A stretch of DNA of 64,000 nt from Pontibacter virosus (GCF_003096355.1 NZ_QEKI01000001.1:62001-126000), one strand, 5' to 3'. Shown: positions 2,310 through 26,942, numbered from the stretch's first letter. Numbers and translations: made by a program. The notes: a model not told the origin generated them from the letters alone.

Positions 2310-2497
2310 ACTGGTTGTATTCCATTGATACATAATTATGCTCCAGAATCCTATAAAGCCTCTTTAATTGCGCATGCCTTTAAAGATTTGTTGCTCACAC
2401 AATGCAGGCAGCAGGGTTTAAGAGTAGATGTAGTAGTTAGGTGTCGTGGAAATGTACCAGTCCATTACTGTATAACCCTTAACTAATATTTTATAAA

Positions 2498-12447: not shown

Positions 12448-13896
12448 TCAATAATTGTTAATGCAGTCAGACATGGTCTCTTTAATGGACTGCGGGTGAC
12501 ATTGTGATTCCACCTCTGCTTCCTTTTCCAGATTCATCCATGTACCCTTAGCAAACTTATAGGCCAAGACCCCTGCACGGGTCACAATGTCAATACCAAT
12601 GGCGATCCAGACACCAATAAGGCCCCAGCCCAGGGTGATTCCAAGGTAGTAGACCAGAACGGTGCGGATGGCCCACATACCAGCCGCCGTCAGGTACATG
12701 GGGAACTTCGTATTATTGGCAGCCTGGTACGCGCCTGTAAGCGTTAATAGGGCTGCCAGAAAAGGCTGAAACGCACCCGAAACCTTCAGGGCGTTCCCTA
12801 TTTTAGAGATTACCTCCGGGTCTTCGGAGAACAGACTGCCTGCCCACTCTCCCAGGAAGAAGAGCAGTAAGCCCAGCACTCCCATAATGCCTACAGCCAT
12901 CCAGGCCCCTATTTTTGTAAAAGAAATCGCCTCCTCTATTCTTCCTGCACCTATCTGCTGTCCGGCCAGTATAGTAACTGCTGTGGCAAAGCCATAACCT
13001 GCCATATAGGAGATTACCTCCACATTACCGGCAATCTGATGGGCGGCGAAGACGTTGGTTCCCAGCGAAACGATGAACCCGAAGTAGACGATCTGCCCTG
13101 CCCGCATAATGAGCACCTCACCGGCCGCAGGGCTGCCTAATGTAGCAAGCTCCTTCTGATGGCCCCAGTCAACAGACCAGAAGTCCTTCCGGAAGGCCAG
13201 CACCTCCGATCGCTGGATGTAGTAGACCAACAGAAGGGTCCCAAGTACACGGGAAGCAACTGTAGCCAAAGCAGCACCAGTAACTCCCATTTCAGGAAAA
13301 ATCCAGAAACCGAAAATAAGGGCATAGCCCAGGAGCGCATGGAAAATGTTGATGATAATGCTGACTTTCATGGGGGCCCGTGTATTACCTGAGCCCCGTA
13401 AATTGGCACTAAGCGCAAACATGAGCGACATAAATACGGATGGGATACCCACAACCCGGAAATAGTCCTCCCCAATATCCAGCACCTGCTCTTCCAGACC
13501 CATGAGCGTGAGCAGGGGGCGTGCAAAAAATAGCGTTACGATACCTGTTAGTATGCCAAAAAGGATGGAGAGGATGATGGCCTGCTGCGCGATATGCCGG
13601 GCCCTTTCGACTTGGTTCGCTCCCAAGGCATTTGCCACCCTTACGTTTGCTGCCACCCCGATAGCCATAAAGACGGCAAAGTAGATAGCCAGTACAGCAT
13701 TAGTGGCCCCTATGGCAGAAACCTCCGCTAGGCCTATCTTTGAGACGAAATAGACATCCACAAAGCCAATGAATGTCTGAAAGAAGTTCTCTACTACTGC
13801 CGGAAAAGCAAGGAGCAGGACAATCTTCATTTTATCGCGAAGAGTGGCAGTAACCGGTATGTCTACTTGCTCTTTGTTAGCTTCCATAGGCAACAT
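12448..13896 (-). CDS. MATE-family multidrug/cation efflux transporter
   Basis: 482 residues with about twelve hydrophobic helices. The first helices read IVLLLAFPAVVENFFQTFIG and FVDVYFVSKIGLAEVSAIGA, the standard MatE opening, and the second half repeats the pattern (AAGEVLIMRAGQIVYFGFIV). Members exchange Na+ or H+ for organic cations and drugs across the inner membrane. Substrate cannot be told from sequence. It lies 30 bases downstream of the His-rich protein gene at 13927-14625 on the same strand, so the two are probably one operon. Start: ATG at 13896; a second in-frame ATG is three codons later. Confidence 0.92.
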   Translation of the reverse strand: MLPMEANKEQVDIPVTATLRDKMKIVLLLAFPAVVENFFQTFIGFVDVYFVSKIGLAEVSAIGATNAVLAIYFAVFMAIGVAANVRVANALGANQVERARHIAQQAIILSILFGILTGIVTLFFARPLLTLMGLEEQVLDIGEDYFRVVGIPSVFMSLMFALSANLRGSGNTRAPMKVSIIINIFHALLGYALIFGFWIFPEMGVTGAALATVASRVLGTLLLVYYIQRSEVLAFRKDFWSVDWGHQKELATLGSPAAGEVLIMRAGQIVYFGFIVSLGTNVFAAHQIAGNVEVISYMAGYGFATAVTILAGQQIGAGRIEEAISFTKIGAWMAVGIMGVLGLLLFFLGEWAGSLFSEDPEVISKIGNALKVSGAFQPFLAALLTLTGAYQAANNTKFPMYLTAAGMWAIRTVLVYYLGITLGWGLIGVWIAIGIDIVTRAGVLAYKFAKGTWMNLEKEAEVESQCHPQSIKETMSDCINNY

Positions 13897-13926: not shown

Positions 13927-14625
13927 CTAGTGATGGTGCCCATGAAGCCCCTGCCCAGGAAGCTCAGCTACTTGCACAACATAATCCAGGGTATACAGTA
14001 GCCCGTTCAGCAGGAATTGAATCCACACCCGGTATAATCCCGTGGCAGTAAAAGCAGAGTGCAGCACCAACACCTCCTCGTGCACCATGGGGTGGACATG
14101 AAGGTATTCTTTTGTATCCACATTGATCATGACTACATGGGCCTTGGCACCCAGAAAATCACCTAATAAAGAGACCGGTATGGCAGCCTCACCCTGTTTC
14201 ATAGTAACGCGTATGGCATTAAGGTCCTGCACATCCAGTTGCACGCTTATATTGTCAACCGTTTTACTGAGCACATCCTGCTGGTAGCGCTGCACGTCTC
14301 TGCTATCACCGGCAACGTCCACCGATTTTCGGATAACAGCCGGTGCCGTATTCAGGGGCTTTACATCGCAGTAAAGCAGGAATTTGCCCCCAAAGGGAAA
14401 TATGAAGTCAACAGAGTATTCCTTGCCTGCCTTTTCCGGGTGCTCGTGGGCAAAGAAAGAAAGGTCTTCTGATACTATGATGAGGTGAATGTCCTTGGTA
14501 TGTACCTCTTCCAGTACAAGGGGAACACCGGAGGCCTCCTGGTTAACAGGTGTGAGAAGTAGTGTCACCTTTTCCTGTGCGCTTATAGCGGAAGGCTGAG
14601 AGCTTATTAAAACGTCAAACATCAA
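13927..14625 (-). CDS. YtkA/FixH-like protein with HxH motifs, unknown function
   Basis: 232 residues without a signal peptide. Two similar beta-sandwich-like halves are visible: the first has KDIHLIIVSEDLSFFAHEHP and a following YSVDFIFPFGGKFLLYCD; the second has AHVVMINVDTKEYLHVHPMV. The chain ends in GHHH. The pattern His-x-His-Pro after a hydrophobic strand is typical of YtkA-like and related proteins linked to copper handling. The paired HEHP and HVHP motifs could make a metal site. Directly upstream of the MATE gene (30-base gap), it may be a partner or a cytoplasmic metal-binding protein. The role is not known. Confidence 0.6.
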   Translation of the reverse strand: MMFDVLISSQPSAISAQEKVTLLLTPVNQEASGVPLVLEEVHTKDIHLIIVSEDLSFFAHEHPEKAGKEYSVDFIFPFGGKFLLYCDVKPLNTAPAVIRKSVDVAGDSRDVQRYQQDVLSKTVDNISVQLDVQDLNAIRVTMKQGEAAIPVSLLGDFLGAKAHVVMINVDTKEYLHVHPMVHEEVLVLHSAFTATGLYRVWIQFLLNGLLYTLDYVVQVAELPGQGLHGHHH

Positions 14626-14763: not shown

Positions 14764-14848
14764 TAGTTACAATCTGCTGCACATACTGCTTAAGCATTTA
14801 TCAAGGCACTGTTTCTATACTTAATGCTTACATAAGTCTTATGAAAGC
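14764..14848 (-). pseudogene. Decayed 5' remnant of a third four-helix copper-protein gene
   Basis: Read on the minus strand, bases around 14764-14785 (TGTGCAGCAGATTGTAACTA) match the segment encoding CAAACNY in the intact four-helix copper-protein gene (TGTGCAGCAGCCTGTAACTA). The distance from here to the shared upstream repeat starting near 14849 is about the same as in the intact copy. No open frame remains. Short match, so moderate confidence; it is supported by the much longer repeat next to it. Confidence 0.4.
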
Positions 14849-15116
14849 GTGCTTGGTTATACCTTTCCGTGCACCCTTCTGTTTTATATATTCATGAGTT
14901 GTTTTTATATAAATTAGCTTTTAGCACTAGCTTGAGTCCCTCTAAAACAGGCAACATCTACCCTGACAGTGATTCCAAGTCTAAACTTGCCGGGCTTCCT
15001 GACTCTGCCAGCCCTATGCTTTTTAACTCCTTATTTGTTATTGCGTTTAGAAGAACGTGCTAACTATTCGATAGTGTCTGCTTGGCTTTAGATGGTAAGC
15101 ACTCCTAATGGTAAGC
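14849..15116. repeat. Copy 1 of a repeated upstream region, with deletion junction
   Basis: 14849-15060 aligns along its whole length with 18905-19116: shared strings include GCTTGGTTATACC, GTTTTATATATTC and TTATTGCGTTTAGAAGAACG. In the other copy this region leads into the ion-channel gene. Here it jumps, at about 15061-15085, straight to sequence matching 20300-20320 (GGTAAGCACTCCTAA), so the channel gene has been deleted. A strong direct sign of segmental duplication followed by loss. Confidence 0.85.
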
Positions 15117-15151
15117 AAGTCTAAAAAATCCCAACAATTCCGACTATCGAT

Positions 15152-15391
15152 TTTCAAGTCCTTGCCACCGATGCCTACAACCCATATGATTTCAGCCTTG
15201 AATCCTGCTTGCTGCACCACATTTTCGATCCTGTGGGGATCAAGGTCTGTACCGGATACGCTTAACAGCTTGTCTTTACGTTCCGTATCAACGTGCCAGC
15301 GGCTTATACTTTCTTCTTTATCCAAGTAAGAAGCCACCTTTGTCAAGGCCTACTCGCTTTCGATGTTAGTTTTAAACTTGATTATTTCTAT
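15152..15391 (-). pseudogene. Broken copy of the HMA-like protein gene at 20349
   Basis: Translated on the minus strand from 15391, the sequence matches the intact 79-residue protein encoded at 20349-20588 almost residue for residue (EIIKFKTNIESE, then ALTKVASYLDKEESISRW, LSVSGTDLDPHRIENVVQQA, GIGGKDL). It carries three lesions: the start codon is ATA instead of ATG, codon 14 is a TAG stop, and the normal stop after GKDL has become AAA, so the frame runs on to 15047. Expression of a full product is therefore unlikely. A TTG at 15346 could start a shortened protein. Confidence 0.85.
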
Positions 15392-15504
15392 ACAAATAAG
15401 AACTAAGGTCCAAACTCATTGCTCCTTACACTTTTGCACAAAACAGCTGCAGACAACCATGTGAGAGCAGAGAAAGTTACCACCTTTTGCTATTACGTGC
15501 GGCT

Positions 15505-16305
15505 TCAGGATACGGTACCTTTCAGCACTTCCTCCAGTTCGCGCTCCGTTATACTTCCCCAGTACCTCCTGTATTCCGACTCGTCAGTTGTATGCTGCAC
15601 CGGTTCTAATTCAGGAGCCACCTGATAAAGTGCCGTCCGGAGCGCTACATAAGGTCTGTACCCGATGAGCAGCACGCCGTGGTCCCCTCCCTCGCGCCGG
15701 ATGGTAAGGGTTGGAAAACGGGTAATACCATGCAAGCGCACCTGTCTGAGGTCTTCCTCAAAAGCCTTACGCGCCTCTTCTCCTCCCAAGTCACGTTCAA
15801 ACACTTCTGCATTAAACACATCAGGTTGCGCCTCGGCTAAGCTACGTCCCACCTGCCGCAAAACATCCCGCCCGCCAATGTTCTGCCCCTGCAGCATTAC
15901 AGCTTCACGCACTTTACGCAGGTATGCTTCCGAGGCTACCGGCGACTGCAGCCCGGCAGCCTTAACAGCAATACATGCAGGAAAAGAAGACGCAGGCGGG
16001 TTTTCGTACCAGATTTTATCCCGTATGGGCATACCGGAAACATACTTTGCTTCCATCCAGAGCGGCCCCATCTGCAGCGGACGATTAACTACGTTCATCG
16101 GGTCGTTAAAGCTTTCCCAGTTGGCAATAAGCCCGCCCATGCGGTAGCGCCATTTTACCTTGCCGCTGTACTCAAAGCGTAGACGCCGCCATTGGGGCTC
16201 CAGAGACCAGCTCCAGCAACAAAGAGGGTCGGTGTAGTATTCTATCTCCACCGACCCTGCTTCCTTTTTATTATCTCGTTTGTTTTCTCTTTCAACCATT
16301 CTCAA
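15505..16305 (-). CDS. DsbA-family (FrnE-like) thioredoxin-fold protein
   Basis: 266 residues. The thioredoxin-like first strand and active-site turn are seen as VEIEYYTDPLCCWSW (C29-C30-W31-S32), followed by an all-helical insertion and the return of the thioredoxin fold with the cis-Pro loop ITRFPTLTI near residue 195. FrnE/DsbA-like proteins act as cytoplasmic disulfide oxidoreductases or bind glutathione-type thiols. Here the active site is CCWS rather than CxxC, so a classic dithiol exchange is not certain. The gene starts 13 bases after the stop codon of the manganese catalase gene on the same strand, so the two are most likely co-transcribed and act together against oxidative stress. 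Confidence 0.8.
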   Translation of the reverse strand: MRMVERENKRDNKKEAGSVEIEYYTDPLCCWSWSLEPQWRRLRFEYSGKVKWRYRMGGLIANWESFNDPMNVVNRPLQMGPLWMEAKYVSGMPIRDKIWYENPPASSFPACIAVKAAGLQSPVASEAYLRKVREAVMLQGQNIGGRDVLRQVGRSLAEAQPDVFNAEVFERDLGGEEARKAFEEDLRQVRLHGITRFPTLTIRREGGDHGVLLIGYRPYVALRTALYQVAPELEPVQHTTDESEYRRYWGSITERELEEVLKGTVS

Positions 16306-16318
16306 TTGTTTCTCCTGC

Positions 16319-17263
16319 TTACAGGCTAATCTGAGGGTACTTGCACCACTGGTTCTCCCCTTTAGGTACTGCCGCTTTGACTTTTTTGCTTCGTTCCTGG
16401 CTCAACGCCTTGTCCATTTTATCAACAGATTTCATTGTACGGTCAGTACCATTTGTTTTGTGGTCAATCATGCCGTTGGTTTCCACCACGTGCCGGAAGG
16501 GCTCTTCCACGTACTGCCAGGTCTCCCCAAGGCCGGGGCTCTTGCCTTCGTTCCAGGGCCCTTTTACATCAGGTCCATTCGACATGTTAAAGTAGTTGTT
16601 GCTGTAACGCGGATCGCCCTGCAGTACACCTGGCGGGAAGTTTGGCTGTATCGTTTCCAGTGCCGCCTCAAACATCTGGAAGTGCGCCACCTCACGTGTC
16701 ATCAGAAAACTCAGGGTTTCCTTTACATAAGGGTCATCTGTGAACTGCATCAGGTACTCGTATACAATTTTGGCCCTGGACTCAGCTGCTATGTTAGACC
16801 GGAGGTCAACGGTAGGATCTCCATTGGCATCCACATAAGAGCCATTCCACGGCACACCCTGGCTGTTGGTCAAAGTAGGGCCGCCGCCACTCAGCACGAA
16901 GAACTGCGGGTTGACCATGGCATTGTGGATGAAATCCTCTTTCTTCGCCTTCCCCTGTAGCAACTGCATGATCTCTGCCTCCTCGGCCGCGTTCTTTAAC
17001 TCACCGTTGATCGGCCCCAGTAGCATCTGGATAGTAGCTCCGACAATTTCGAGGTGACTGAATTCCTCTGTGGCAATATCCATCAGCATATCATACTGGT
17101 CCGGATAGGGTTGACGCACACTAAATGCCTGCACAAAATACTGCATCGCGGCTTTCAGCTCTCCGTTAGCACCCCCAAACTGTTCCAGCAGCAGGCTGGC
17201 AAAGGCTGGGTCAGGTTTCGATACACGCGCATTAAACTGTAGCTCCTTTACGTGATAAAACAT
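16319..17263 (-). CDS. Manganese (non-heme) catalase
   Basis: 314 residues, beginning MFYHVKELQFNARV like most members. The four-helix ferritin-like core has the di-manganese ligands in the expected order: E35 in GGANGELKAAMQYF, E67-x-x-H70 in IATEEFSHLE, a Glu in NIAAESRAKIVYEYL, and a Glu-His pair in MTREVAHFQMFE. The enzyme converts two H2O2 to water and oxygen in the cytoplasm without heme. The C-terminal tail (after about 235) is the usual lid region. It heads a two-gene unit with the DsbA-like gene. In a copper island it may deal with peroxide arising from copper redox cycling, which is inference from context. Confidence 0.95.
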   Translation of the reverse strand: MFYHVKELQFNARVSKPDPAFASLLLEQFGGANGELKAAMQYFVQAFSVRQPYPDQYDMLMDIATEEFSHLEIVGATIQMLLGPINGELKNAAEEAEIMQLLQGKAKKEDFIHNAMVNPQFFVLSGGGPTLTNSQGVPWNGSYVDANGDPTVDLRSNIAAESRAKIVYEYLMQFTDDPYVKETLSFLMTREVAHFQMFEAALETIQPNFPPGVLQGDPRYSNNYFNMSNGPDVKGPWNEGKSPGLGETWQYVEEPFRHVVETNGMIDHKTNGTDRTMKSVDKMDKALSQERSKKVKAAVPKGENQWCKYPQISL

Positions 17264-17585
17264 TTGTCCTCCTTTCTTAAATAAAACAAAAAATTGTCTT
17301 TTCTAAAACGGAGAGCAGAAAGGAGAGTTTGTAAAAATAAATTTTAATTATCTAGAATTTAATACTTTAGAAACGAACCTATACTGCCAGATAAGAACAG
17401 GTGTACGTAACTGAAGTGTAAAGGCAGGCTAGCAACAGGCACCCGAACTGTATATCAGAAACCTGAAACTTCCTATAGTACGGGTGTAAAACTGATCTTA
17501 GTAAAGTGAATATTACCTTTTGTTTCGTGCGGAAAAAACATAAGGCTGCAATGTTTACACTTTTGAAAAAAGGTATTAAGACAGG
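17264..17585. other. Intergenic region, no gene seen
   Basis: About 320 bases upstream of the manganese catalase gene. Its AT-rich first 110 bases (17264-17370) should hold that gene's promoter. No conserved domain or RNA gene is visible. Confidence 0.45.
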
Positions 17586-17620
17586 AAGCCTGGCTGCTAA
17601 CACTGTTAGCAGCCAGGCTT
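17586..17620 (-). terminator. Strong stem-loop after the DUF305 gene
   Basis: A perfect 16-bp stem, 17586-17601 with 17605-17620, loop of three bases. It lies 52 bases beyond the stop codon of the minus-strand DUF305 gene at 17673. On the minus strand the T-rich run is not immediate, so efficiency is uncertain; on the plus strand the stem is followed by TT. Confidence 0.65.
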
Positions 17621-17672
17621 TTAAATCTTCATTCGGTACAAAGCATACTACTACATATTACAAAGCATATTA

Positions 17673-18383
17673 CTACATATTATGATGTTTGGTAGGTATA
17701 CCGTGTTCATTCAGGAAAGCTGCCAGTTCCATTATTTCCTGCGACTGCTCTTCAATGATTAATCTGGCTTCTTCTAATGCCATTGCATCATCTCCCCACT
17801 TCAGCTCAGTTTCTGACATGGCTATCGCTCCCTGGTGGTGGCAGATCATGAGCTGGGCAAAGTCAACATCCGGATCAGGCGTATCCTTTACAGAACGCAT
17901 GCAGTGCATCATAGCCATCATGTCTTCCCGCATCTCCATCATAAACATCTTGCACTCTTCTTTTGAGAGCGGCTCTGCGCCCGGGTGTGAAGCTAAAAAA
18001 GCCTGCAATCTTTCTTTGCTTTCCATGTTGCCTATCTTCGTTTTCTCGGCCAACGCAAGCGCTTCCGGCTCATGCCCATATTGCAGTTCCAAGTCGGCCA
18101 TTTTAATTCCCATCTCGTGGTGCATGATCATCATGCTGGCAAAATCGATGTCGGGGTCGCAGGTCATCTCCATCTGGTTCATCATCTTCATCATGGAGTT
18201 GATGATATGCTGCATTTCCTTGTCAAAGGCTTTGTCATCTTCCCAGTAAGGACCCTTCGCAGCTTGCTCTGCAGTAGCACTTAATGGGGTTACAACATCC
18301 TGGTCCTTTTCGCAGCTACTGAACATAAAGACAGCAACTACCATAAGAGCAAAGCTCTTGATACTGATAAAACTAGTTTTCAT
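17673..18383 (-). CDS. DUF305 lipoprotein (intact copy of a duplicated gene)
   Basis: 236 residues. The leader ends in FMFSSC (C24), so it is a lipoprotein. Two DUF305 units follow: DIDFASMMIMHHEMGIKMADLEL and DVDFAQLMICHHQGAIAMSETEL, both with the HH and Met pattern of copper-binding DUF305 domains; linking helices are Met-rich (MFMMEMREDMMAMMHCM). A mature periplasmic or outer-membrane copper buffer is the likely role. A near-identical but frameshifted copy lies at 23412-24120. It is downstream of the four-helix copper protein gene (same strand, separated by a terminator), an order that is repeated in both copies. Confidence 0.88.
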   Translation of the reverse strand: MKTSFISIKSFALMVVAVFMFSSCEKDQDVVTPLSATAEQAAKGPYWEDDKAFDKEMQHIINSMMKMMNQMEMTCDPDIDFASMMIMHHEMGIKMADLELQYGHEPEALALAEKTKIGNMESKERLQAFLASHPGAEPLSKEECKMFMMEMREDMMAMMHCMRSVKDTPDPDVDFAQLMICHHQGAIAMSETELKWGDDAMALEEARLIIEEQSQEIMELAAFLNEHGIPTKHHNM

Positions 18384-18485
18384 ACATGATGGATTAAGTG
18401 GTTAAAAGTTGTGATCAGAAAAACAACTTACCTGCCTCTTTTTCTTACAGAAGCTTCTTTTTCTGCATTGTAATTGGGCTCAAGC

Positions 18486-18543
18486 AAAAACCACCCTGAC
18501 CGCTCTATCAGGTATAGAACAATCAGGGTGGTTCTTAGGTCTT
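18486..18543 (-). terminator. Rho-independent terminator after the four-helix copper protein gene
   Basis: An 11-bp stem, 18489-18499 with 18533-18543, followed on the minus strand by a run of five T (A run at 18486-18490 on the plus strand). The duplicated locus has the same hairpin at 24217-24264 with one base pair less, the change being matched on both arms, which supports a real structure. Confidence 0.88.
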
Positions 18544-18568
18544 GCATTGGGTCAGCACAGAGTAACAA

Positions 18569-18883
18569 CTACGCCTGCTGGCAAGCCTGCTCGCAACGGC
18601 GACAAGCCTCAGCGCACGTACGGCAGTGCTCCATGTGCGAATGCTTCTCACACTCTGCACCACATTCTCTACACACTCTGGCACACAGATCCAGCACTTC
18701 TCTGGAGAAGGTAGAATCCCGTGATACATAGTCCAGTGCCATTTTACAGATGGCTGCGCAATCCAAGTCAAGTCGGATGCAGCGTTCCATCATTTTCACA
18801 TCATCTTCCTGCAGGCAGGAAACTGCACAGTAGTTACAGGCTGCTGCACACTCAGCTAATGCGGTTATTAAGTCTTTATTCAT
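18569..18883 (-). CDS. Four-helix-bundle copper-storage protein (Csp-like)
   Basis: 104 residues with 16 cysteines placed along four helices: AECAAACNYCAVSC, RCIRLDLDCAAIC, LCARVCRECGAEC and HCRTCAEACRRCEQAC. This is the pattern of Csp proteins (PF03860-type), four-helix bundles whose core cysteines hold many Cu(I) ions. There is no signal peptide, so it should be the cytosolic (Csp3-like) kind, storing or buffering copper that escapes the ATPase. An almost identical paralogue lies at 24300-24614 and a decayed one near 14764. The gene is divergent from the ion-channel gene at 19124, the two being separated by the repeated 18905-19116 region. Confidence 0.93.
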   Translation of the reverse strand: MNKDLITALAECAAACNYCAVSCLQEDDVKMMERCIRLDLDCAAICKMALDYVSRDSTFSREVLDLCARVCRECGAECEKHSHMEHCRTCAEACRRCEQACQQA

Positions 18884-18904
18884 AATTATCTGGATTTTAA
18901 TGAA

Positions 18905-19116
18905 ACATATGCTTGGTTATACCCATCCGAAGCCCCTTCCGTTTTATATATTCTTGAACTATAATTATATATTTTTGGTGGCGGTACTACCTTAGGTGCT
19001 CTTTAAAACAGGTAAAATCAGCCCTAGCAGTGGCTGCAAGCTTACATTTGCCAGGGTCTGTCACCTCTATGCTGTTTAACTCCCTACCTGTTATTGCGTT
19101 TAGAAGAACGTGCTAA
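18905..19116. promoter_or_regulatory. Repeated divergent upstream region (copy 2, intact setting)
   Basis: This region separates the minus-strand copper-storage gene from the plus-strand channel gene. It matches 14849-15060 along its length, and its part next to the storage gene also matches 24652-24718. The best-kept blocks across all three are CTTGGTTATACC (short inverted GGT/ACC ends) and GTTTTATATATTC. Conservation of the non-coding bases, especially in all three copies next to the storage gene, suggests a promoter/operator shared by these genes. The regulator is unknown; the AraC-HMA protein encoded at 1722 is one candidate. Confidence 0.55.
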
Positions 19117-19123
19117 CGATGCG

Positions 19124-20146
19124 ATGTACTTTATGAATTTGCTGTATCTCTTCTTGGGAGCTCTTATTTTTACCTTAATTGCACTGGATATCATTAAGAC
19201 CACCTTTTCTTCTAGCGGAGGCGGTCGGATTACGGAATTAGTGTCTAGGGCGGTGTGGAAGACTTTCTTCTCTGTCTCAGGTAAAGAGGGGAAATCAAAA
19301 TTGCTTGAGTATGCGGGACCATCTATCCTTACCTGCACGCTTCTGACCTGGGTCCTTGGGCTATGGGCAGGACTGTTCCTGCTGCTGCTCTCTGATCCAG
19401 ACTCTGTTATAAACAGCACTACCTTATCCAGTGCCAGCCCTTTGGAGAAGCTCTACTATGCCGGCTTTACACTTTCCACTTTGGGAGTGGGAGACTATGT
19501 GGCATCGAATGATGTGTGGCGGATTATTACGAGTGTCACAGCTTTCTCAGGCTTAGCTTTCATCACTGCCTCCCTCACCTATTTTGTACAGGTACTATCT
19601 GCCGTAGGCTTGCAGAGCAAGCTCAGTCTTTACATTAACAGCATGGGTAAAACGCCACAGCAGATTCTGGTTAACAGCTGGGACGGGAAAGGCTTCTCCT
19701 CCTTTTTTGATAATGTGTCAGATATTTGCCAGATGCTCATGCAGCATACTGTTAACCACCATTCCTTTCCTGTGATTCATTACTTTCATAACTGTCAACC
19801 AAAGTTGTCTGTCGCGCCCGCCGTTGTGCTGCTGGATGAGGCACATCAGCTCCTGGAGCAAGCCGTTTCGCAGGATGTTATAAAGAGCGAAGTTAAAATG
19901 ACAATGCTACAAACGGCACTGGATTCGTATCTGGAGATGGTGAAAGGAAGTTTCCTGAAAAACACTTCTCCCCAGGAAGCTGCTCCTATACCTGATATAG
20001 GGAAAATGGAGGAGAAAGGAGTTCCAATTAAAAACAGGGAAGAAGTAGAACAAACTTTTAAACAGAACCTGAAGGACCGCCGGAGACTGCTATCTTCCCT
20101 TTTGGAAATGGACGGCTGGCCCTGGAAGGAAGTGTATCAATCGTAA
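19124..20146 (+). CDS. Two-helix-pore ion channel-like membrane protein
   Basis: 340 residues from the ATG at 19124 (a TTG at 19094 is also in frame but lies in the repeated non-coding region). Layout: an N-terminal helix (LLYLFLGALIFTLIALDII), a second at about 66-90, then a pore loop AGFTLSTLGVGDYVAS with the filter sequence T119-L-G-V-G-D124, close to the TVGYGD of potassium channels, and a third helix at 131-160. A soluble C-terminal domain of about 180 residues follows, with a His cluster (HTVNHHSFPVIHYFHNC). This is an Ion_trans_2-type protein. A K+ or other cation channel is likely; a link to copper is inferred only from its place in the duplicated copper module. Confidence 0.75.
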   Translation: MYFMNLLYLFLGALIFTLIALDIIKTTFSSSGGGRITELVSRAVWKTFFSVSGKEGKSKLLEYAGPSILTCTLLTWVLGLWAGLFLLLLSDPDSVINSTTLSSASPLEKLYYAGFTLSTLGVGDYVASNDVWRIITSVTAFSGLAFITASLTYFVQVLSAVGLQSKLSLYINSMGKTPQQILVNSWDGKGFSSFFDNVSDICQMLMQHTVNHHSFPVIHYFHNCQPKLSVAPAVVLLDEAHQLLEQAVSQDVIKSEVKMTMLQTALDSYLEMVKGSFLKNTSPQEAAPIPDIGKMEEKGVPIKNREEVEQTFKQNLKDRRRLLSSLLEMDGWPWKEVYQS

Positions 20147-20348
20147 GTCGAGCACTTTCACAACCTTGTGTAAGATTTTAGATTTTAGATGGAGGTGCAC
20201 TATTATTTATCTCTGCTTGGCTGAATTTAGGTTCCCGGATTAATTTAACACTAGTATCTCTTTCTATCAGCTGGGGTTTTACTAAAATCATTTTAGTGTA
20301 TGCCTGGTTTTAAATGGTAAGCACTCCTAACAGTTTCTGCTATCGGCT

Positions 20349-20588
20349 TTACAAGTCCTTGCCACCGATGCCTATAACCCGGATGATTTCAGCTTTGAAT
20401 CCTGCTTCCTGCTCCACATTTTCAATCCTTTGGGGATCAAGATCTGTACCGGAGACACTTAAAATATTTTCTGTGCTTCCAGTTTCCAGCTTCCACCTGC
20501 TGATACTTTCTTCTTTGTCCGGGTAAGGCGCTACCCTGGATATAGCTTCCTCATTCTCCACATTGGTTTTGAACTTGATTACTTCCAT
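20349..20588 (-). CDS. HMA-like ferredoxin-fold protein without cysteines
   Basis: 79 residues (MEVIKFKTNVENEEAISRV ... GIGGKDL). The beta-alpha-beta pattern KFKTNV / EEAISRVAPYPD / ESISRWKLE / NILSVSGTDLDPQRI / AEIIRVIGIG is that of heavy-metal-associated domain proteins common in Bacteroidota. However there is no cysteine at all, so the usual CxxC metal site is missing. It may bind a partner rather than a metal or use other ligands. It is convergent with the channel gene (202 bases apart). A broken copy at 15152-15391 keeps the same neighbouring sequence. Confidence 0.8.
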   Translation of the reverse strand: MEVIKFKTNVENEEAISRVAPYPDKEESISRWKLETGSTENILSVSGTDLDPQRIENVEQEAGFKAEIIRVIGIGGKDL

Positions 20589-20761
20589 AGCAACATGTGT
20601 TTTTGCTTAAAATGAACGCGACAGTTTACACCAGGTTGTGCAACGGCTACGCTTTACGGCCTGTATGTATTCATCAGGCATGTTCGCTTACCTGCCTTCA
20701 AGCGGAATCTTTCCAAAAATTCTCTTATCTTACAGTATACTTTGTCTTAAACTTGTAAAGA

Positions 20762-21823
20762 ATGAGGGCACCATTACAGCTTCTAACGTTTGTCTTGTTT
20801 CTGATTTTAAATACCTCCTGTAGCAAAACAGAACAAGAAACGACAAACACCCTGCTCCTGGCAGGTCGTCAGCCACAGATCGCAGTAGATACAAAAGGGA
20901 ATACCAGGGTAGTGTATGGCTTGGAAGACAGAATTTATTGCGTCACGTCCAAAGATAACGGACAAACCTTCTCAGAACCTCTACTGGTGGGGCAGCTGAA
21001 GGGCTTGTACCTGGGCATGTCCATGGGGCCTCAGATTGCCAGCTCCATGAATTACTCGGTGGTAACCGCCATAGATAAGCAGGGTAATATCCATACCTAC
21101 AGTCTGGACCATGATACAAATAAGTGGATAAAGGCAGCTGGTGTGAATGACATACCGGGCTCAGTGCCAGAAGGCCTGATGAGTATCGCCTCCGATGAAC
21201 AAGACACCTTCTATGCTGTGTGGCTGGATGTAAGAAACACCAAACAAAACAAGATCGTGTTTGCCTCCACTACAGGAAACGCCGCCGCATGGTCAGAAAA
21301 CAAGATAGTATACGTATCGCCAGACAGCACCGTGTGCGAATGCTGTAAGCCAAGTATAGATGTGGAAGGCAAACAGGTAATCCTGATGTTCAGAAACTGG
21401 GTAGATGGCTCCAGAGATTTTTACCTGACCAAATCAACTGACAACGGACAACACTTTTCTCAGCCACAGAAACTAGGGAATGGCACCTGGGAACTGGAAG
21501 GATGTCCCATGGACGGCGGGGGCATTGTACTGGATAGTAAGAATACGATTCACACTTCCTGGCAACGGGAAGGGAATATCTTCTATGCAAAGCCTGGCCA
21601 ACAGGAAGTGCAAATTGGCAGAGGCCGGAACTGCCGCATCAGCGGAAAAACAAATCCGGTTATTGCCTGGAAAGATGGTTCAGATCTAAAACTAAAATTC
21701 CTGAATGCAGATACGGAAACTGTGGTAGGGAAAGGCAGCTATATTGAAACTGCTGAAATGCCGGATAAAAAAACGCTTTGTGTCTGGGAAGATGAAAACA
21801 AGATCCATTTCAGGAAAATATAA
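20762..21823 (+). CDS. Sialidase-like (BNR-repeat) lipoprotein with CxCC motif
   Basis: 353 residues. The leader ends in NTSC (C20), a lipobox. The body has several Asp-box-like units, e.g. SKDNGQTFSEP and STDNGQHFSQP, which mark sialidase-type beta-propellers, plus strands of the form DKQGNIHTYSLDHDTNKW. A conserved cluster V-C192-E-C194-C195-K and a later ELEGCPMDGGG are not part of sialidase active sites and could hold a metal. The typical sialidase arginine triad is not evident, so enzymatic sialic-acid cleavage is unlikely. Proteins of this kind accompany copper genes in Bacteroidota, in my recollection. A terminator follows at 21887. Confidence 0.75.
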   Translation: MRAPLQLLTFVLFLILNTSCSKTEQETTNTLLLAGRQPQIAVDTKGNTRVVYGLEDRIYCVTSKDNGQTFSEPLLVGQLKGLYLGMSMGPQIASSMNYSVVTAIDKQGNIHTYSLDHDTNKWIKAAGVNDIPGSVPEGLMSIASDEQDTFYAVWLDVRNTKQNKIVFASTTGNAAAWSENKIVYVSPDSTVCECCKPSIDVEGKQVILMFRNWVDGSRDFYLTKSTDNGQHFSQPQKLGNGTWELEGCPMDGGGIVLDSKNTIHTSWQREGNIFYAKPGQQEVQIGRGRNCRISGKTNPVIAWKDGSDLKLKFLNADTETVVGKGSYIETAEMPDKKTLCVWEDENKIHFRKI

Positions 21824-21886
21824 CAGTAAAAACTTAACAGGTCTAAACTATTCTTTGGTTGTAAAATAGTCCACCTTATTATCAAA

Positions 21887-21923
21887 CGAAGCCGCCCCTC
21901 GGTAAAGAGGCGGCTTCGTTTTT
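21887..21923 (+). terminator. Rho-independent terminator
   Basis: A stem 21887-21900 pairing with 21907-21918 (two bulged C), very G+C-rich, followed by a run of five T from 21919. It ends the transcript of the sialidase-like lipoprotein gene. Confidence 0.88.
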
Positions 21924-21972
21924 ATACATGCATCACCAAGAATAAGATCCGGCCATGGATACAGTATAAGAT

Positions 21973-22420
21973 TTACCTCATTCTGGTTAGGATTGCCTTC
22001 ATTTCTGCTATTTCTTTTTCCTGAGATTCTATGATCTGCTCCGTTAGCCTCTTCACTTCGGGATCTTTTATGTTTGCTTCCTGGCTTACCAGAATGGCTG
22101 AAGAGTGATGCGGAATCATGGATTTTAGAAACTGTTTATCATCCACTAAGGCCTGTTTCCTTAGCATGAACAGTGAGCCGGCAAAAGCTACTACACCAAC
22201 AGCTACAATGATACTTCAGCTTCTTATTTGTATACATTCCCGACATAAACCCTAACATAACAAGCGCCATAGGCGCCACCATCAATAGGGCCATGTACAG
22301 CCTGTTCAGGTTCAGGTACACATGATCAAACTTATCGGCATTCAAATACATCACCCCGTACATGATCACAAACGATACGGCTAGCATCAACAAAAACTTC
22401 ATATAATTTCCCTTTTCCAT
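21973..22420 (-). pseudogene. Membrane-anchored single DUF305 protein, broken by a frameshift
   Basis: The first frame (start 22420) gives MEKGNYMKFLLMLAVSFVIM and further membrane segments (LYMALLMVAPMALVMLGFMS) up to YTNKKLK. The second frame, beginning near 22212, continues naturally with IIVAVGVVAFAGSLFMLRKQ, then DDKQFLKSMIPHHSSAILVS and a C-terminal helix to 21973. Together they form a typical about 145-residue protein with three membrane helices and one DUF305 unit. The frames are joined by an apparent one-base insertion at about 22213. Either the gene is dead or the base is a sequencing error; there is no homopolymer at the site, which favours a real lesion. Confidence 0.8.
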
Positions 22421-22530
22421 TTTTTTTAACTGTTAAAGTATAATTGTTTGCCTATAAGTCTTTTCAAGTAAGCAACGTTGCTTCTTGTTCAGGTATATCC
22501 ATATGGCTATACTCAGGTTCATCTATAAAT

Positions 22531-22570
22531 TCATAAAGCCACTCCAACAGCTGTCGGAGTGGCTTTATGA
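22531..22570 (-). terminator. Stem-loop after the DUF2911 gene
   Basis: A perfect 15-bp stem, 22531-22545 with 22556-22570, loop of ten bases, 26 bases beyond the stop codon of the minus-strand gene at 22596. The T run on the minus strand is weak (ATTTAT). Confidence 0.7.
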
Positions 22571-22595
22571 ATAAAAATATGCTTCTTGGCTACAC

Positions 22596-23225
22596 CTAAA
22601 TAGCAACGGGTACTGTTACTTTCAACTTGTCCCAGCTTATGTTAATGGCTCCTTTGCTATCAGCCTCTGACACGATCTGGTAACGAAGTCGCTCCTGTGG
22701 CTGCGCTGCTGCTTCAGGTTTTACGGTAACGCGCAATACGTCTTCCTTCTCCGTGTAATCGTCGGTCAGGTGCTGCTCCCAGTTTTTGTTGATGATGATA
22801 GTCCACTCCTCCTTTCCAGGAATGGTGAACAAGGCATACTTGCCTGCTGGCAGTAGCTTTTCTTCTATGGTGATATCTTTATCCGTTGTCAGGCTGGTGG
22901 CTGAGTGCGCTCCTGTCACCCATACCTGGTCGTAAGCTACCAGGCCGCCCCAGATGTTGCGTCCGCGCACGGCTGGTGAATGGTAATTGATGGTCAGGTG
23001 CGCATTGCCTACCATACCATGGGCTTCTGCTTTCAGACTGCCTCTTAATGTATCAGGTTCCGGTTGATCCTGTATAATGACAGCGCCTTCGCTCATTTTA
23101 GGGGTATGATTGGCGTGCTGTGTTTCTTCTGCTGGTACTTCCAGTTCTTTAGCGGTTTGATTGCAATAGGACAGGGAGGCGCAAAATATAAGAGCAAAAA
23201 AGCTGTTTGTAATTTTGGGGTTCAT
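22596..23225 (-). CDS. DUF2911 lipoprotein
   Basis: 209 residues. The leader ends in SLSYC (C21), a lipobox-like site. The body matches DUF2911: AHLTINYHSPAVRGRNIWGGL, VWVTGAHSATSLTTDKDITI, LLPAGKYALFTIPGKEEWTI and IINKNWEQH are the usual conserved strings. DUF2911 proteins are exported proteins of unknown function, frequent in Bacteroidota. A short His/Glu-containing spacer (EETQHANHTPKMSEG) links the lipid anchor to the domain. No metal site is evident beyond the histidines, and its role in the island is unknown. Confidence 0.88.
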   Translation of the reverse strand: MNPKITNSFFALIFCASLSYCNQTAKELEVPAEETQHANHTPKMSEGAVIIQDQPEPDTLRGSLKAEAHGMVGNAHLTINYHSPAVRGRNIWGGLVAYDQVWVTGAHSATSLTTDKDITIEEKLLPAGKYALFTIPGKEEWTIIINKNWEQHLTDDYTEKEDVLRVTVKPEAAAQPQERLRYQIVSEADSKGAINISWDKLKVTVPVAI

Positions 23226-23350
23226 GGTGTAAGGGTTGTAGTATGGGTATTAAACCGGCTTTGACAAGGTAAGCAATACCTATTGTTTGATGTAAATGAA
23301 GGCTAAAACTACAAATTTTATACTCCGGATGAAACGGCATTTAACTAAAG

Positions 23351-23380
23351 AGCCCGGCTGACGTTTCCAGTAGCCGGGCT
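23351..23380 (-). terminator. Stem-loop after the broken DUF305 gene
   Basis: A 9-bp G+C-rich stem, 23351-23359 with 23372-23380, with CTTT on the minus strand side. It lies where the intact DUF305 gene copy has its stem-loop (17586-17620). Confidence 0.65.
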
Positions 23381-23411
23381 TGTAAATCTTAAGTCAGATC
23401 ATGCTGACTTA

Positions 23412-24120
23412 CTACATGTTATGGTGCTTGGTCGGTATACCGTGCTCATTTAAGAATGCGGCTAGCTCCATTATTTCCTGCGCTTGCTCTTCAATGATCA
23501 TTTCAGCCTCCTCCAAGGCCATTTCATCATCCCCCCACTTCAATTCTGTGTTTGACATGGCAAGGGCTCCTTCGTGATGACAGATCATCAGCTGGGCAAA
23601 ATCAACATCCGGATCAGGTGTGTCCATTACAGAACGCATGCAGTGCATCATAGCCATCATGTCCTCTCGCATCTCCATCATAAACATCTTGCACTCCTCC
23701 TTCGAGAGTGGTTCCGCCCCTGGATGCGATGCCAGCAATGCTTCAAGACGTACTTTACTTTCCATGTTGCCTATCTTCGTTTTCTCGGCCAGTTCCAGTG
23801 CCTCGGGCTCATGCCCATACTGGAGTTCCAGGTCGGCCATTTTAATACCCATTTCGTGGTGCATGATCATCATGTTGGCAAAATCAATGTCGGGGTCGCA
23901 GGTCATCTCCATCTGGTTCATCATCTTCATCATGGAGTTGATGATCTGCTGCATTTCCTTGTCAAATGCTTTGTCGCCCCCCAGTAAGGACCTTTCGTCG
24001 CTTTCTCTGCGCTGGTACTTAACGGGCTAACAACATCTTGGTCATTTTCGCAGCTGCTGAACACAAAGACGGCAATTAGCATAAGAGCAAAGCTTCTGAT
24101 ACTGATAAAATTTTTTTCAT
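23412..24120 (-). pseudogene. Frameshifted duplicate of the DUF305 lipoprotein gene
   Basis: Compared with the intact copy at 17673-18383, this copy matches from the signal sequence (FALMLIAVFVFSSCENDQD) to the identical C-terminus (FLNEHGIPTKHHNM). Two single-base losses break it: one in an A run right after the start codon (ATG at 24118-24120 followed by seven A; eight are needed to keep frame), and one in a run of six G on the coding strand (plus-strand C run 23977-23982; seven would restore frame). The last 180 residues remain open from an internal ATG at 23954. Both lesions are in homopolymers, so slippage, phase variation or sequencing error must all be considered. Confidence 0.85.
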
Positions 24121-24216
24121 AGATTATGTGGTTAAAAAATGTGACCAAAATTCACTTACTAAGCCTCTTAATTTTATGGGGACTTCTATCGGTGCACTGT
24201 AATTCACGTCCACGCC

Positions 24217-24264
24217 AAAAAACACCCTGACCGCTCTAGCAGGTATAGAACAATCAGGGTGTTT
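24217..24264 (-). terminator. Rho-independent terminator after the second copper-storage gene
   Basis: Stem 24221-24230 with 24254-24263, followed on the minus strand by six T (A run 24217-24222). It corresponds to the hairpin at 18486-18543; the lost base pair is missing from both arms, as expected of a selected structure. Confidence 0.88.
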
Positions 24265-24299
24265 CTTAGGTCTTGCATTTGACCAACTTGTAATAACAA

Positions 24300-24614
24300 C
24301 TACGCCTGCTGGCAAGCCTGCTCGCAACGACGGCAAGCCTCAGCGCACATACGGCAGTGCTCCATGTGCGAATGCTTTTCACATTCCGCACCGCACTCGC
24401 GACACACTCTGGCGCACAGGTCCAGCACGTCTCGCTTCATAGTCGAATCACGGGATACATAATCCAGCGCCATTTTACAGATAGCGGCACAGTCCAGATC
24501 GAGGCGGATACAGCGCTCCATCATTTTCACATCGTCTTCCTGCAGACAGGAGACAGCACAGTAGTTACAGGCTGCGGCACATTCTGCCAACACTGAAACT
24601 AGTTCTCTATTCAT
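24300..24614 (-). CDS. Four-helix-bundle copper-storage protein (Csp-like), second copy
   Basis: 104 residues from the ATG at 24614 (an ATG four codons upstream, 24626, is also possible). The sequence differs from the copy at 18569 at about ten positions, mostly near the N-terminus and in the turn DSTMKRDV, while all 16 cysteines are kept. The role is the same: cytosolic Cu(I) binding by core cysteines of a four-helix bundle. Conservation of every cysteine, while the adjacent DUF305 copy has decayed, suggests this copy is still under selection. It is followed by a matching terminator and then by the broken DUF305 gene. Confidence 0.92.
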   Translation of the reverse strand: MNRELVSVLAECAAACNYCAVSCLQEDDVKMMERCIRLDLDCAAICKMALDYVSRDSTMKRDVLDLCARVCRECGAECEKHSHMEHCRMCAEACRRCEQACQQA

Positions 24615-24651
24615 CGTTATGTTCATAGTTTGTTTTGTTTGGTTATAAGTC

Positions 24652-24718
24652 CTTAGTTATACCCATCCCTTACCGTGATAGTTTTATACATTCCCAGCTG
24701 ATTTTTATATAATTATGA
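24652..24718. promoter_or_regulatory. Upstream region of the second copper-storage gene (repeat copy 3)
   Basis: The strings CTTAGTTATACCCATCC and GTTTTATACATTC here match the blocks at 18910-18953 and 14850-14893. Similarity ends near 24720. Only the part nearest the copper-storage gene is kept, which suggests that this part drives that gene. Confidence 0.5.
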
Positions 24719-24720
24719 AT

Positions 24721-25432
24721 ACCCCTTGTTGGTTGCCTGAGCAATACAGTGTTTTAATAATTATATTTATAGGGTATATTTGCAGGAATATACTAATGCT
24801 TGGGCTGCAGGGCGCCATTGTTAGGAAGAGTCTAATGCTCAAGGCTTCTACTCCATTACTGGAACTGCTTCACAAAAACTTTTAATGCGGGGCTCTTAAG
24901 TTAGAATGCGCAAAATATTGGCCTTGCCAATATGGGTATATACCTCACATGCCTCTCCGGTATATTCAGTTGTCGCGACAATCATAGAAAATTTTCCAGG
25001 ACTATGGACCTACACTACAAGTTAAAGGCATAAACACCTCGTGACGATAATAGAGGATTAAAGGCCAATCTCAATTACGCTGTATGTAAATTGGGCTGCT
25101 ACCATGAAGATGATCTCTTCCTTACATAAAAATGTAAGGAAATAAAAAAAGTCACCTGACGACCTTACTCAAAAGAAGCTGATCCTAAAGCTAGATTACC
25201 TGAAATTGAACTAGACTCCTACTCATTATGAGACTTAATGTACCTAAATTTAGAGTATTTGAACCGCCTTTGCCCTGTACTCTACAATAGTAGTCAGCTT
25301 ATTGTCAAGGCCAGTCAAATACATGACAACCTTCCCTCCAATATTCATCGCTATCTATTATTATAGGCGCATAGTGTATTATGGTCCCTTGTTTATTTCC
25401 ACAGCAGAATCGTATTAACTATTAATTAAACC
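24721..25432. other. AT-rich gap without genes next to the integrase
   Basis: About 700 bases with no domain-bearing frame. Small structures only: an 8-bp inverted repeat at 24915-24933 (ATATTGGC/GCCAATAT) and a 9-bp hairpin at 25119-25140. The low coding content and its position downstream of an integrase gene fit a degenerate island edge. Confidence 0.5.
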
Positions 25433-26740
25433 TCACTCGCTAATCATATTAAATGCTGTTAACCGTGCAGCGTACTGCTTCTTCACGTCGTTTTCAAAGC
25501 TATCCAAGTAGCTTTCGGTCGTCTTCAGGTTAGAGTGCCCAAGGGATTCAGATATAAGCTCTATCGGTGCCCCTGCTCGCTTGAGGACTGTAGAGAAGGA
25601 ATGCCGGGCCGTGTACGTGCTTATATTCTTTTCAATGCCAACCGCGGAGGCAACACGCTTGATGTACTTGTTTATAGTCTTGGTGGCATGCTGAATCTTT
25701 GCCCGTTCTCTTTCCGCAGACAACCCTGGTTCAAGCAAGGGGAACACATAATCTTCACTGTAAGCGGGTTTATTACCCCATCTCTCGATGATCTCATCAA
25801 TTTCCTGCGTCCGCATGGCCGTAATGACCTTGATATTCTGGCGGCTGGTCCGCTCCGTCTTGGCCCTGACAAAGGTGATCCTCTCCTGGTCAAGCTGCTT
25901 GTACTTCAGACGGGCGATGTCCTTCACGTTTATCCCGTTGCACAGGTAGGAGAAGATCCACAGGTCCCGCGCACGCCCTTCGTTCTCGGTGGCAGGCTTA
26001 TAGGAGAATATCTTTTCAATGTCTGCCAGCGTCAGGGCTTTCTTCACATTCCGGCCGGAGGGTATCTGGTACTTTCTCTTGCCGAACGGGTAGAGGTCGG
26101 CGTTCACCTCCCCTGCCGCGATGGCGTTGTTGTAGATGGCGCGAAGCGCCCGCAGGTAGATGCCTATGGTGGTGATCGAGTGGCCGTGCTGAAGCATCCA
26201 TTTCTCGTACCCCATCAGGAAATCAACAGTTATAGCGGCATAAGCCAGAGGCTTGCGTTTCTTCAGCAGGTTTTCCCTCTTCTCGGTTGCTTTAGCTCTA
26301 GATAAGCCCTTATTTCTGGTAAGGGGTTCTTTCTGAATAAAGGATAGCAAGGAGAGGCTGGCGCTCTCGTAGCTGCTGGCCGTGCCTACCCTGCCTTCCT
26401 CAACCAGTCTTGTGACTTGCTGCTCAAATGCTGTAAAGACATCGTTCTTAACTGCAGTGTTCAGGTACTTCTTCTCGAACTGCTCAAAAGTGAAGGTTTC
26501 AAGGTTACGGATGATGCCTATAGCCTTCTGCTCTATTGCCTGAAAAGCTATCTGAAGCTCTTTGTACTTTCCTTTCGGCTTTTCCGCTTGAACCTTAAAG
26601 AATTCTGCCTCGCTCAAAGAGTAGCTCGTATTATAGTATTTGCGCTGTCTTTGGAAGGTGAGCCTCAACCTTACCGGGAATGAGCCATCTTTCAGAGCCC
26701 TTCTGGTATCCAGCATGACGGAAGTAAGTACGGGTATCAT
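25433..26740 (-). CDS. Tyrosine recombinase / integrase of the island
   Basis: 435 residues from the ATG at 26740 (VLTSVMLDTRRALKDGSFPV is the usual start of Bacteroidota integrases; a longer frame from 26779 overlaps an inverted repeat). It has an N-terminal arm-binding domain, a SAM-like core-binding domain at about 95-220, and a C-terminal catalytic domain with KTERTSR (Lys), ARHSFSTVL (Arg), SLGHSNLKTTESYLDSF (His and the nucleophile Tyr). The first catalytic Arg region reads CNGINVKDIARLKY, as in integrases of conjugative elements that lack the standard Arg there. Its 5' end lies 154 bases from a tRNA-Arg fragment, so it most likely inserted this island. Confidence 0.9.
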   Translation of the reverse strand: MIPVLTSVMLDTRRALKDGSFPVRLRLTFQRQRKYYNTSYSLSEAEFFKVQAEKPKGKYKELQIAFQAIEQKAIGIIRNLETFTFEQFEKKYLNTAVKNDVFTAFEQQVTRLVEEGRVGTASSYESASLSLLSFIQKEPLTRNKGLSRAKATEKRENLLKKRKPLAYAAITVDFLMGYEKWMLQHGHSITTIGIYLRALRAIYNNAIAAGEVNADLYPFGKRKYQIPSGRNVKKALTLADIEKIFSYKPATENEGRARDLWIFSYLCNGINVKDIARLKYKQLDQERITFVRAKTERTSRQNIKVITAMRTQEIDEIIERWGNKPAYSEDYVFPLLEPGLSAERERAKIQHATKTINKYIKRVASAVGIEKNISTYTARHSFSTVLKRAGAPIELISESLGHSNLKTTESYLDSFENDVKKQYAARLTAFNMISE

Positions 26741-26741
26741 G

Positions 26742-26780
26742 TGTGTGCAAATTATTTCCTGTACACACAATTTGCACACA
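26742..26780. promoter_or_regulatory. Inverted repeat just upstream of the integrase start
   Basis: A perfect 12-bp inverted repeat: TGTGTGCAAATT at 26742-26753 and AATTTGCACACA at 26769-26780, 15 bases between. Its position immediately before the ATG at 26740 suggests an operator or a recombinase/accessory-factor site. The related string ACAATTTGCA occurs at 26767-26776 and again at 26992-27001, on the other side of the tRNA fragment. Confidence 0.6.
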
Positions 26781-26893
26781 AACCGTCAAAAAGTCAAGTA
26801 ATATTACTAAACAAGGAGAAACAAAAATTGCTTAATTTGGCTAAAAAGACGGTTTTTACTAATATATAATACTAGCAATAAAGGCTATCGTCA

Positions 26894-26938
26894 TGACTAC
26901 GAATCAGAAGGTTAGGGGTTCGACTCCCTTCGCGACCA
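26894..26938 (+). other. 3' half of a tRNA-Arg gene: attachment-site footprint of the island
   Basis: These 45 bases hold an anticodon loop CTACGAA (anticodon ACG, Arg), its 3' stem, a variable region, the T arm with loop TTCGACT, and the acceptor 3' strand CGCGACC plus the discriminator A. There is no matching 5' half upstream: no D arm and no GGTCGCG partner strand is seen in 26780-26893. A partial tRNA beside an integrase gene is the standard result of insertion at a tRNA 3' end, with the complete tRNA at the other island border, which would be left of this window. It is not a functional tRNA here. Confidence 0.85.
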
Positions 26939-26942
26939 CTTA

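Follow-up and report, generated by a model that had tools for sequence, protein, structure and literature searches.

We analyzed a 64,000-nt stretch of the Pontibacter virosus genome (GCF_003096355.1; 4.88 Mb in 42 contigs, G000), here called the window, which covers positions 62001-126000 of contig C1 (NZ_QEKI01000001.1) and carries repeated sets of copper storage (csp), ion channel and HMA-like genes. We consider it likely that this copper locus was built by recombination from older, separately evolving pieces on a mobile Pontibacter island, with one operator-like box shared among its promoters. The pieces combined would be a divergent csp-channel pair, a run of manganese catalase (MnCat), DsbA and HMA genes, and a run of csp, DUF305, DUF2911, membrane DUF305-like (mDUF305), BNR-repeat and HMA genes. 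Coordinates below are those of the window unless a genome (G), contig (C) or locus (L) label is given.

The repeats are real and far above chance. Self-alignment of the window paired 17670-18889 with 23409-24620 (csp plus DUF305; 1223 columns, 82% identity, E=0), HMA1 with HMA2 (15129-15392 and 20325-20589; 77%, E=4e-54), the upstream region P1 with P2 (14850-15072 and 18910-19125; 73%, E=2e-32), and 15072-15108 with 20294-20330 (37 bp, 89%, E=2e-7). An earlier reading of this DNA, made from the letters of the window (the sequence-only reading), had proposed such similarity between 14849-15060 and 18905-19116 and between 15152-15391 and 20349-20588, and both pairs proved significant in this alignment. 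The related genes recur in the same order and orientation at a spacing of about 5.2-5.7 kb. Copy 2 consists of an intact DUF305/CopM gene (DUF305_2, 17673-18383, minus strand), csp2 (18569-18883, minus), the divergent upstream region P2 between csp2 and the channel (18884-19123, 100% identical to P. mucosus), the channel gene (19124-20146, plus) and HMA2 (20349-20588, minus), an intact gene for an HMA-fold protein without CxxC according to a motif check and the predicted fold. In copy 3, csp3 (24300-24626, minus) is intact and 91% identical to csp2, and DUF305_3 (23412-24120, minus) is broken by two 1-bp deletions which leave signal peptide and domain in different frames, so that the similarity claimed for a second DUF305 gene stands and its intactness does not. 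The mDUF305 gene (21973-22420, minus) is also broken, by a 2-bp deletion evident from alignment with the intact L098 copy, and both broken genes lie within DNA identical in three species. The sequence-only reading further saw the near upstream region kept up to 24718; the storage gene is indeed intact, but the similarity at 24650-24718 is weak (it scores 29 with P2, where shuffles reach 26, and 40 with P1, where they reach 35) and comes chiefly from the operator-like box common to csp promoters.

To judge from their phylogeny and synonymous divergence (dS), csp2/csp3 and HMA1/HMA2 are old paralogues or xenologues that were assembled here without a recent three-fold amplification, because the members of each pair belong to different clades, each of which includes orthologues from other species, and their dS values are high. 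In the csp tree, csp2 clusters with P. mucosus, P. amylolyticus and genome G002, and csp3, in its own clade, with P. roseus, Pontibacter sp. FD36, P. ruber and others. The HMA tree likewise splits HMA1 from HMA2. Some inner nodes of these trees are poorly supported, but members of one csp group never turn up in the other, and the same holds for the HMA groups. The dS is 1.26 for csp2-csp3 (ratio of nonsynonymous to synonymous divergence, dN/dS, 0.04) and about 0.75 for HMA1-HMA2 (dN/dS 0.20).

Copy 1 has the anatomy that the sequence-only reading gave it: csp is cut down to a short remnant, the upstream region is retained, the channel is gone and the HMA gene is inactivated in three ways. The csp1 remnant (14764-14805, minus strand, about codons 5-18) matches 18831-18872 over 42 bp with a score of 34, against 26 for the best of 300 dinucleotide shuffles, and is also present in P. 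amylolyticus, G002, FD36 and P. vulgaris. P1 (14850-15072) is joined to a channel in FD36, P. vulgaris and P. roseus; no channel gene lies between 15072 and the 3′ flank of HMA1 in the window, where by alignment P1 directly abuts that flank (15072/15073). The 37-bp stretch past this junction was considered as a channel 3′ flank and ruled out, since it is contiguous with HMA in G041 and is thus the HMA 3′ flank. Compared with the intact orthologues of P. amylolyticus (G048) and G002, the HMA1 pseudogene (15151-15392, minus) has its start changed from ATG to ATA, reads TAG in frame at codon 14 and has lost its stop through a 1-bp deletion, though a truncated product from an internal TTG (open reading frame 15047-15346) may conceivably be made. 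The loss of csp1 is common to FD36 and P. vulgaris, where the channel persists; P. amylolyticus and G002 lack the channel in copy 1 but have an intact HMA1; and the HMA1 lesions occur in the window only. As read from these nested states, csp was lost first, the channel was then lost or displaced by block insertion, and HMA1 was broken last.

Locus architectures in the relatives fall into three types. In Type I (FD36, P. vulgaris), a gene at a position here called CopC-like (CopC-position gene) is followed by the csp remnant, P1 and the channel, and in Type II (P. mucosus, P. actiniarum) by DUF305, csp, a P2-type region and the channel. Type III (the window, P. amylolyticus, G002) starts with the CopC-position gene, csp remnant and P1 without a channel, and continues through HMA1, DsbA, MnCat, DUF305_2, csp2 and P2 to the channel; the csp loss of Type I is thus also found here. 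The islands of P. amylolyticus and FD36 are 99.3-99.4% identical on both sides of the locus and differ by a csp2-to-HMA1 block of about 4 kb, whose edges carry a 68-bp channel-leader repeat. Beyond the channel gene and as far as the end of the island (about 20311-26939), the window, FD36 and P. amylolyticus are 100% identical. The channel gene itself is a mosaic: the window follows P. mucosus, and P. amylolyticus follows FD36 over about the last 600 bp (92-100% identity from about 19558 onward). The gene-order search in other genomes that the sequence-only reading had called for found its csp-channel pair to recur, the MnCat-DsbA-HMA run that is the home of HMA1 to lie away from both csp and channel (P. 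actiniarum, L099), and csp3 to head another run without an adjacent channel in P. ruber (L086) and G018 (L089). A second copper cluster of the source genome (G000:C3:78465-83720; L098, L172) holds a channel paralogue, CopP, a box-bearing csp, a multicopper oxidase (MCO) gene and a paralogue of the regulator described below, which is divergent from csp.

Alignment of the csp upstream regions revealed the box as a pair of half-sites, ATnTATAA and AAATnTGTAAAAC, with a spacing of about 22 bp. Within the window it lies on the minus strand in P1 (14877-14916, score 31.0, one mismatch in the genome pattern search), P2 (18937-18976, 37.7) and upstream of csp3 in P3 (24677-24716, 40.3), and ten shuffles peaked at 10.9; P1 was outside the training set, yet it is homologous to P2. 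The fourth-best match (2464-2503, plus strand, 22.9) stands at the start of a DUF2231-like membrane gene and also precedes that gene in L084, L090 and L166. In other loci the box is found upstream of csp, MnCat, DUF2231-like, CopP and DUF305 genes, and also in the interval that separates MCO from channel; all of these except the csp promoters are matches not used for training. The pattern search through whole genomes is the one box test free of the choice of copper-gene loci, and in G000 it gave four places with zero or one mismatch, all of them csp-type promoters, of which the window holds three and contig C3 the fourth. The shared box is probably a control site that switches copper genes on, and its candidate reader is a regulator with an HTH_18/AraC domain (1722-2309, plus strand; HTH_18 3e-14) and an N-terminal HMA-like domain with the motif MVCPRC (HMA 0.0047, below cut-off), close orthologues of which occur in the copper regions of other species. 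We infer the pairing of this HMA-AraC regulator with the box from spacing and gene neighbourhood. A further match with two mismatches (G000:C5:254164) has an HMA-AraC paralogue (C5:249060) on one side and an HMA gene (C5:256526) on the other, suggesting that the box may serve another chromosomal copper cluster. We found no description of the csp-channel pair or of the box in the open-licence papers that were searched.

How the locus came to its present form can be explained in other ways. The sequence-only reading held that one csp-channel-HMA module was amplified in place to three copies and then trimmed, with csp and its near promoter kept longest. The common order, orientation and spacing of the related genes would fit this, as would an intact csp3 beside the broken DUF305_3 and mDUF305, and decay by stages did hold up, the losses being nested across relatives. 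However, the csp and HMA trees disfavour amplification in place, the paralogues being old and clustering with other species, and whole blocks are present or absent among sibling islands. Copy 1 moreover lost csp first, so the storage gene outlasted its neighbours in copy 3 only. A trimmed full module with a lost channel was also ruled out for copy 3: csp3-type genes have no channel directly upstream in P. ruber, P. roseus, G018, G008, G011 and on contig C3 of G000, and therefore there is no sign of channel loss there. We regard a recent amplification of one module as improbable. A stronger contender, although still somewhat short of an even chance, is that no channel was ever lost from copy 1, as it never stood beside HMA1, and that HMA1-DsbA-MnCat-DUF305_2-csp2-P2 came in as one block, separating P1 from the channel start. 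P1 indeed joins the channel in FD36, the block of P. amylolyticus sits exactly between the two with the 68-bp leader at both edges, and the 3′ half of the P. amylolyticus channel equals that of FD36. Against this, the channel is followed by convergent DsbA-MnCat in G011 (L096) and by a DsbA remnant in G001 (L092), which suggests that a channel once adjoined the MnCat-DsbA run, and one crossover by itself would have produced an additional channel copy, whose later loss must then be assumed.

A separate question is why P1 persists without its csp. The P1 box is kept in six genomes and lies about 252 bp from the CopC-position gene (13927-14625, minus strand), facing first this gene and then the MATE transporter gene (12448-13896, minus; Pfam MatE 2.6e-62), csp and DUF305 being gone from there. 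The CopC-position gene gave no Pfam or NCBIfam match. It also comes after csp-DUF305 in three other species, P. mucosus, P. actiniarum and P. populi, where csp, DUF305, the CopC-position gene and MATE are co-directional. The kept P1 is likely the promoter region for genes that once came after csp, and its box would probably drive the CopC-position gene and MATE, a hand-down of the promoter being the simplest reading. It is less likely, in our view, that P1 is a relic without present use which persists since the loss of its neighbours is recent. The small differences of P1 among Type III genomes may mean that little time has passed, but the retention of the box in six genomes and its orientation toward co-directional genes that follow csp in other species speak against a mere relic.

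A mobile genomic island of about 100 kb sits in tRNA-Arg(ACG), and the window is its right (cargo) end. The sequence common to three species stops at a 3′ fragment of this tRNA (26892-26939, plus strand), about 110 bp from a gene for a tyrosine recombinase which is the island integrase (25433-26779, minus; Phage_integrase 3e-18), and a second copy completes the tRNA. Direct repeats mark both island ends in P. amylolyticus (G048, C4:250189 and C4:350307, 100 kb apart) and FD36 (G005, C11:79153 and C11:185434, 106 kb apart), and in both the far copy completes tRNA-Arg(ACG). A relaxase gene lies inside the island in each case (G048:C4:311382, G005:C11:143128, G000:C1:20434). A related copper locus is plasmid-borne in P. 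actiniarum (NZ_CP021236; G020). The tRNA-Arg 3′ repeat, tyrosine recombinase, relaxase and copper cargo resemble tRNA-integrated metal-resistance islands that carry their own integrase; the difference is that complete transfer machinery was not found for the Pontibacter island in a search that covered the TraG-D_C coupling family.

Several points weigh against a locus assembled on a mobile island under a common box. The island of the source genome itself is broken across contigs, with the second tRNA repeat on C4 and the first on C1. A search for coupling proteins of the TraG-D_C family (PF12696) found none in the P. amylolyticus genome, and the PF12696 matches of FD36 and G000 are on contigs other than that of the island; with no match in P. 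amylolyticus, we take the element to be apparently mobilisable and stop short of calling it conjugative. Csp promoters of the genus served to train the box model and most of the scanned DNA was picked around copper genes, so that enrichment of the box beside copper genes is partly built in. With up to two mismatches, the box gave 80 hits in 11 genomes versus 44 for the reversed pattern, hence weak matches are mostly chance. The 4-kb block is known in two states only, between which gain and loss are not distinguishable. What the analysis establishes is the anatomy and homology of the locus, the clades, the distribution of the box, the ends of the island and the broken genes; how regulator and box pair, how the promoters are used, which way the recombination went and what the channel does are inferences.

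The channel often stands divergent to copper genes: csp is its divergent neighbour in 15 of 30 same-genus channel loci, and csp, MCO or the CopC-position gene is divergent within 900 bp in 18 of the 31 loci of a named set, two of which are one sequence under two names. The protein scores 39.8 bits with Ion_trans_2 against a cut-off of 22.5 (4e-10) and is predicted to conduct K+, with the K+-type (TxGxGD) filter TLG[VI]GD in 28/28 aligned members (TLGVGD in the window). C202, H208, H212, H219 and H222 are invariant in 28 relatives. Among comparable sequences, a few channels being left out, the distant paralogues (L172-L191) that lie away from csp never have Cys at position 202, and their filter is mostly GNGD, not GVGD. 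A Foldseek search with the whole model gave KirBac-like matches with probability >0.9, over about 115 columns, and no match of any kind under E 0.001. The 30 nt before the ATG are conserved and an upstream TTG (19094), also a possible start, is in frame in close relatives, whereas distant channels align only from the ATG region. The legend of a gene map of Acidithiobacillus ferrivorans likewise places a kch potassium-channel gene among copper P-type ATPase and chaperone genes (PMC7463520, Fig. 2), but this is another phylum, the legend does not name csp, and the channels are likened by gene context only. Hypothetically, the channel could sense copper. We give rather little credence to the fuller proposal that the divergent csp-channel pair stands under one HMA-AraC-controlled box, that the Cys/His cluster (the five residues above) senses copper and gates K+, that a copper-responsive channel is the standard storage partner in Pontibacter and its relatives, and that the Cys-less HMA protein is its partner or adaptor.

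Csp is a Cys-rich DUF326 protein (16 Cys in 104 aa) related to known Csp3, csp2 matching solved Csp3 structures at 5e-20, and is predicted to store Cu(I). Its N-terminus, MNKDLITALAECAAACNYC, has no export signal evident by eye. By sequence it resembles cytosolic Csp3, while differing in being island-borne, divergent from an ion channel and under a box of which the searched papers gave no description. The two DUF305 copies score 101.3 (DUF305_2) and 97.6 bits against the NCBIfam CopM cut-off of 90, and DUF305 follows csp. They would act as CopM/DUF305 metallochaperones, from which they differ in that copy 3 is broken. The HMA-like protein shares a predicted ferredoxin-like fold with the HMA domains found by Foldseek (CCS domain I, Ccc2a, PacS, ATP7B repeats). 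It differs in lacking CxxC, which is present in 0/18 family members, and so has no Cys-pair Cu(I) site of the usual kind; there is no Pfam HMA match. The family is under purifying selection (dN/dS 0.04-0.20).

In the assembly that we favour, shared channel and promoter stretches would provide the homology for exchange, gain and loss of blocks between islands and plasmids. In copy 1, csp would have gone first and the channel second, then HMA1 broke while the box survived. As csp-type promoters have one common box, a single copper signal would act on every csp and probably on the divergent channel too, with the HMA-AraC regulator as its most likely mediator. Copper would be stored in the cytosol by Csp, bound outside it by DUF305/CopM, exported by a P-type ATPase and oxidized by the MCO, and under copper stress the channel would tune the flow of K+ or the membrane potential.

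The remaining genes of the region are a DsbA/Thioredoxin_5 family gene (15505-16305, minus strand; Pfam 6.8e-30), the MnCat family gene (16319-17263, minus; Pfam 3.1e-74), a BNR-repeat-like lipoprotein gene (20762-21823, plus; BNR_2 1.7e-7, slightly below cut-off) and a DUF2911 gene (22596-23225, minus; Pfam 1.9e-50). Beside the last, an inverted repeat with 31-nt arms and no loop (22520-22581, 84% complementary) is possibly a terminator. The MCO (9368-11944) has a short direct repeat in its Met/His-rich insert (10485-10618). Among the public assemblies, Contig_20 of Amaricoccus solimangrovi HB172011 (L209) and Contig_15 of Pontibacter mangrovi HB172049 (L210) are both 92608 bp with identical 15005-bp stretches, which is likely cross-contamination.

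The locus shows how, within a single genus, exchange among islands and plasmids can remake copper resistance around a small control site that does not change, and how a lost first gene may hand its promoter region to the next. It also flags an ion channel as a frequent member of copper gene sets, together with a conserved HMA-fold protein without metal-binding cysteines.

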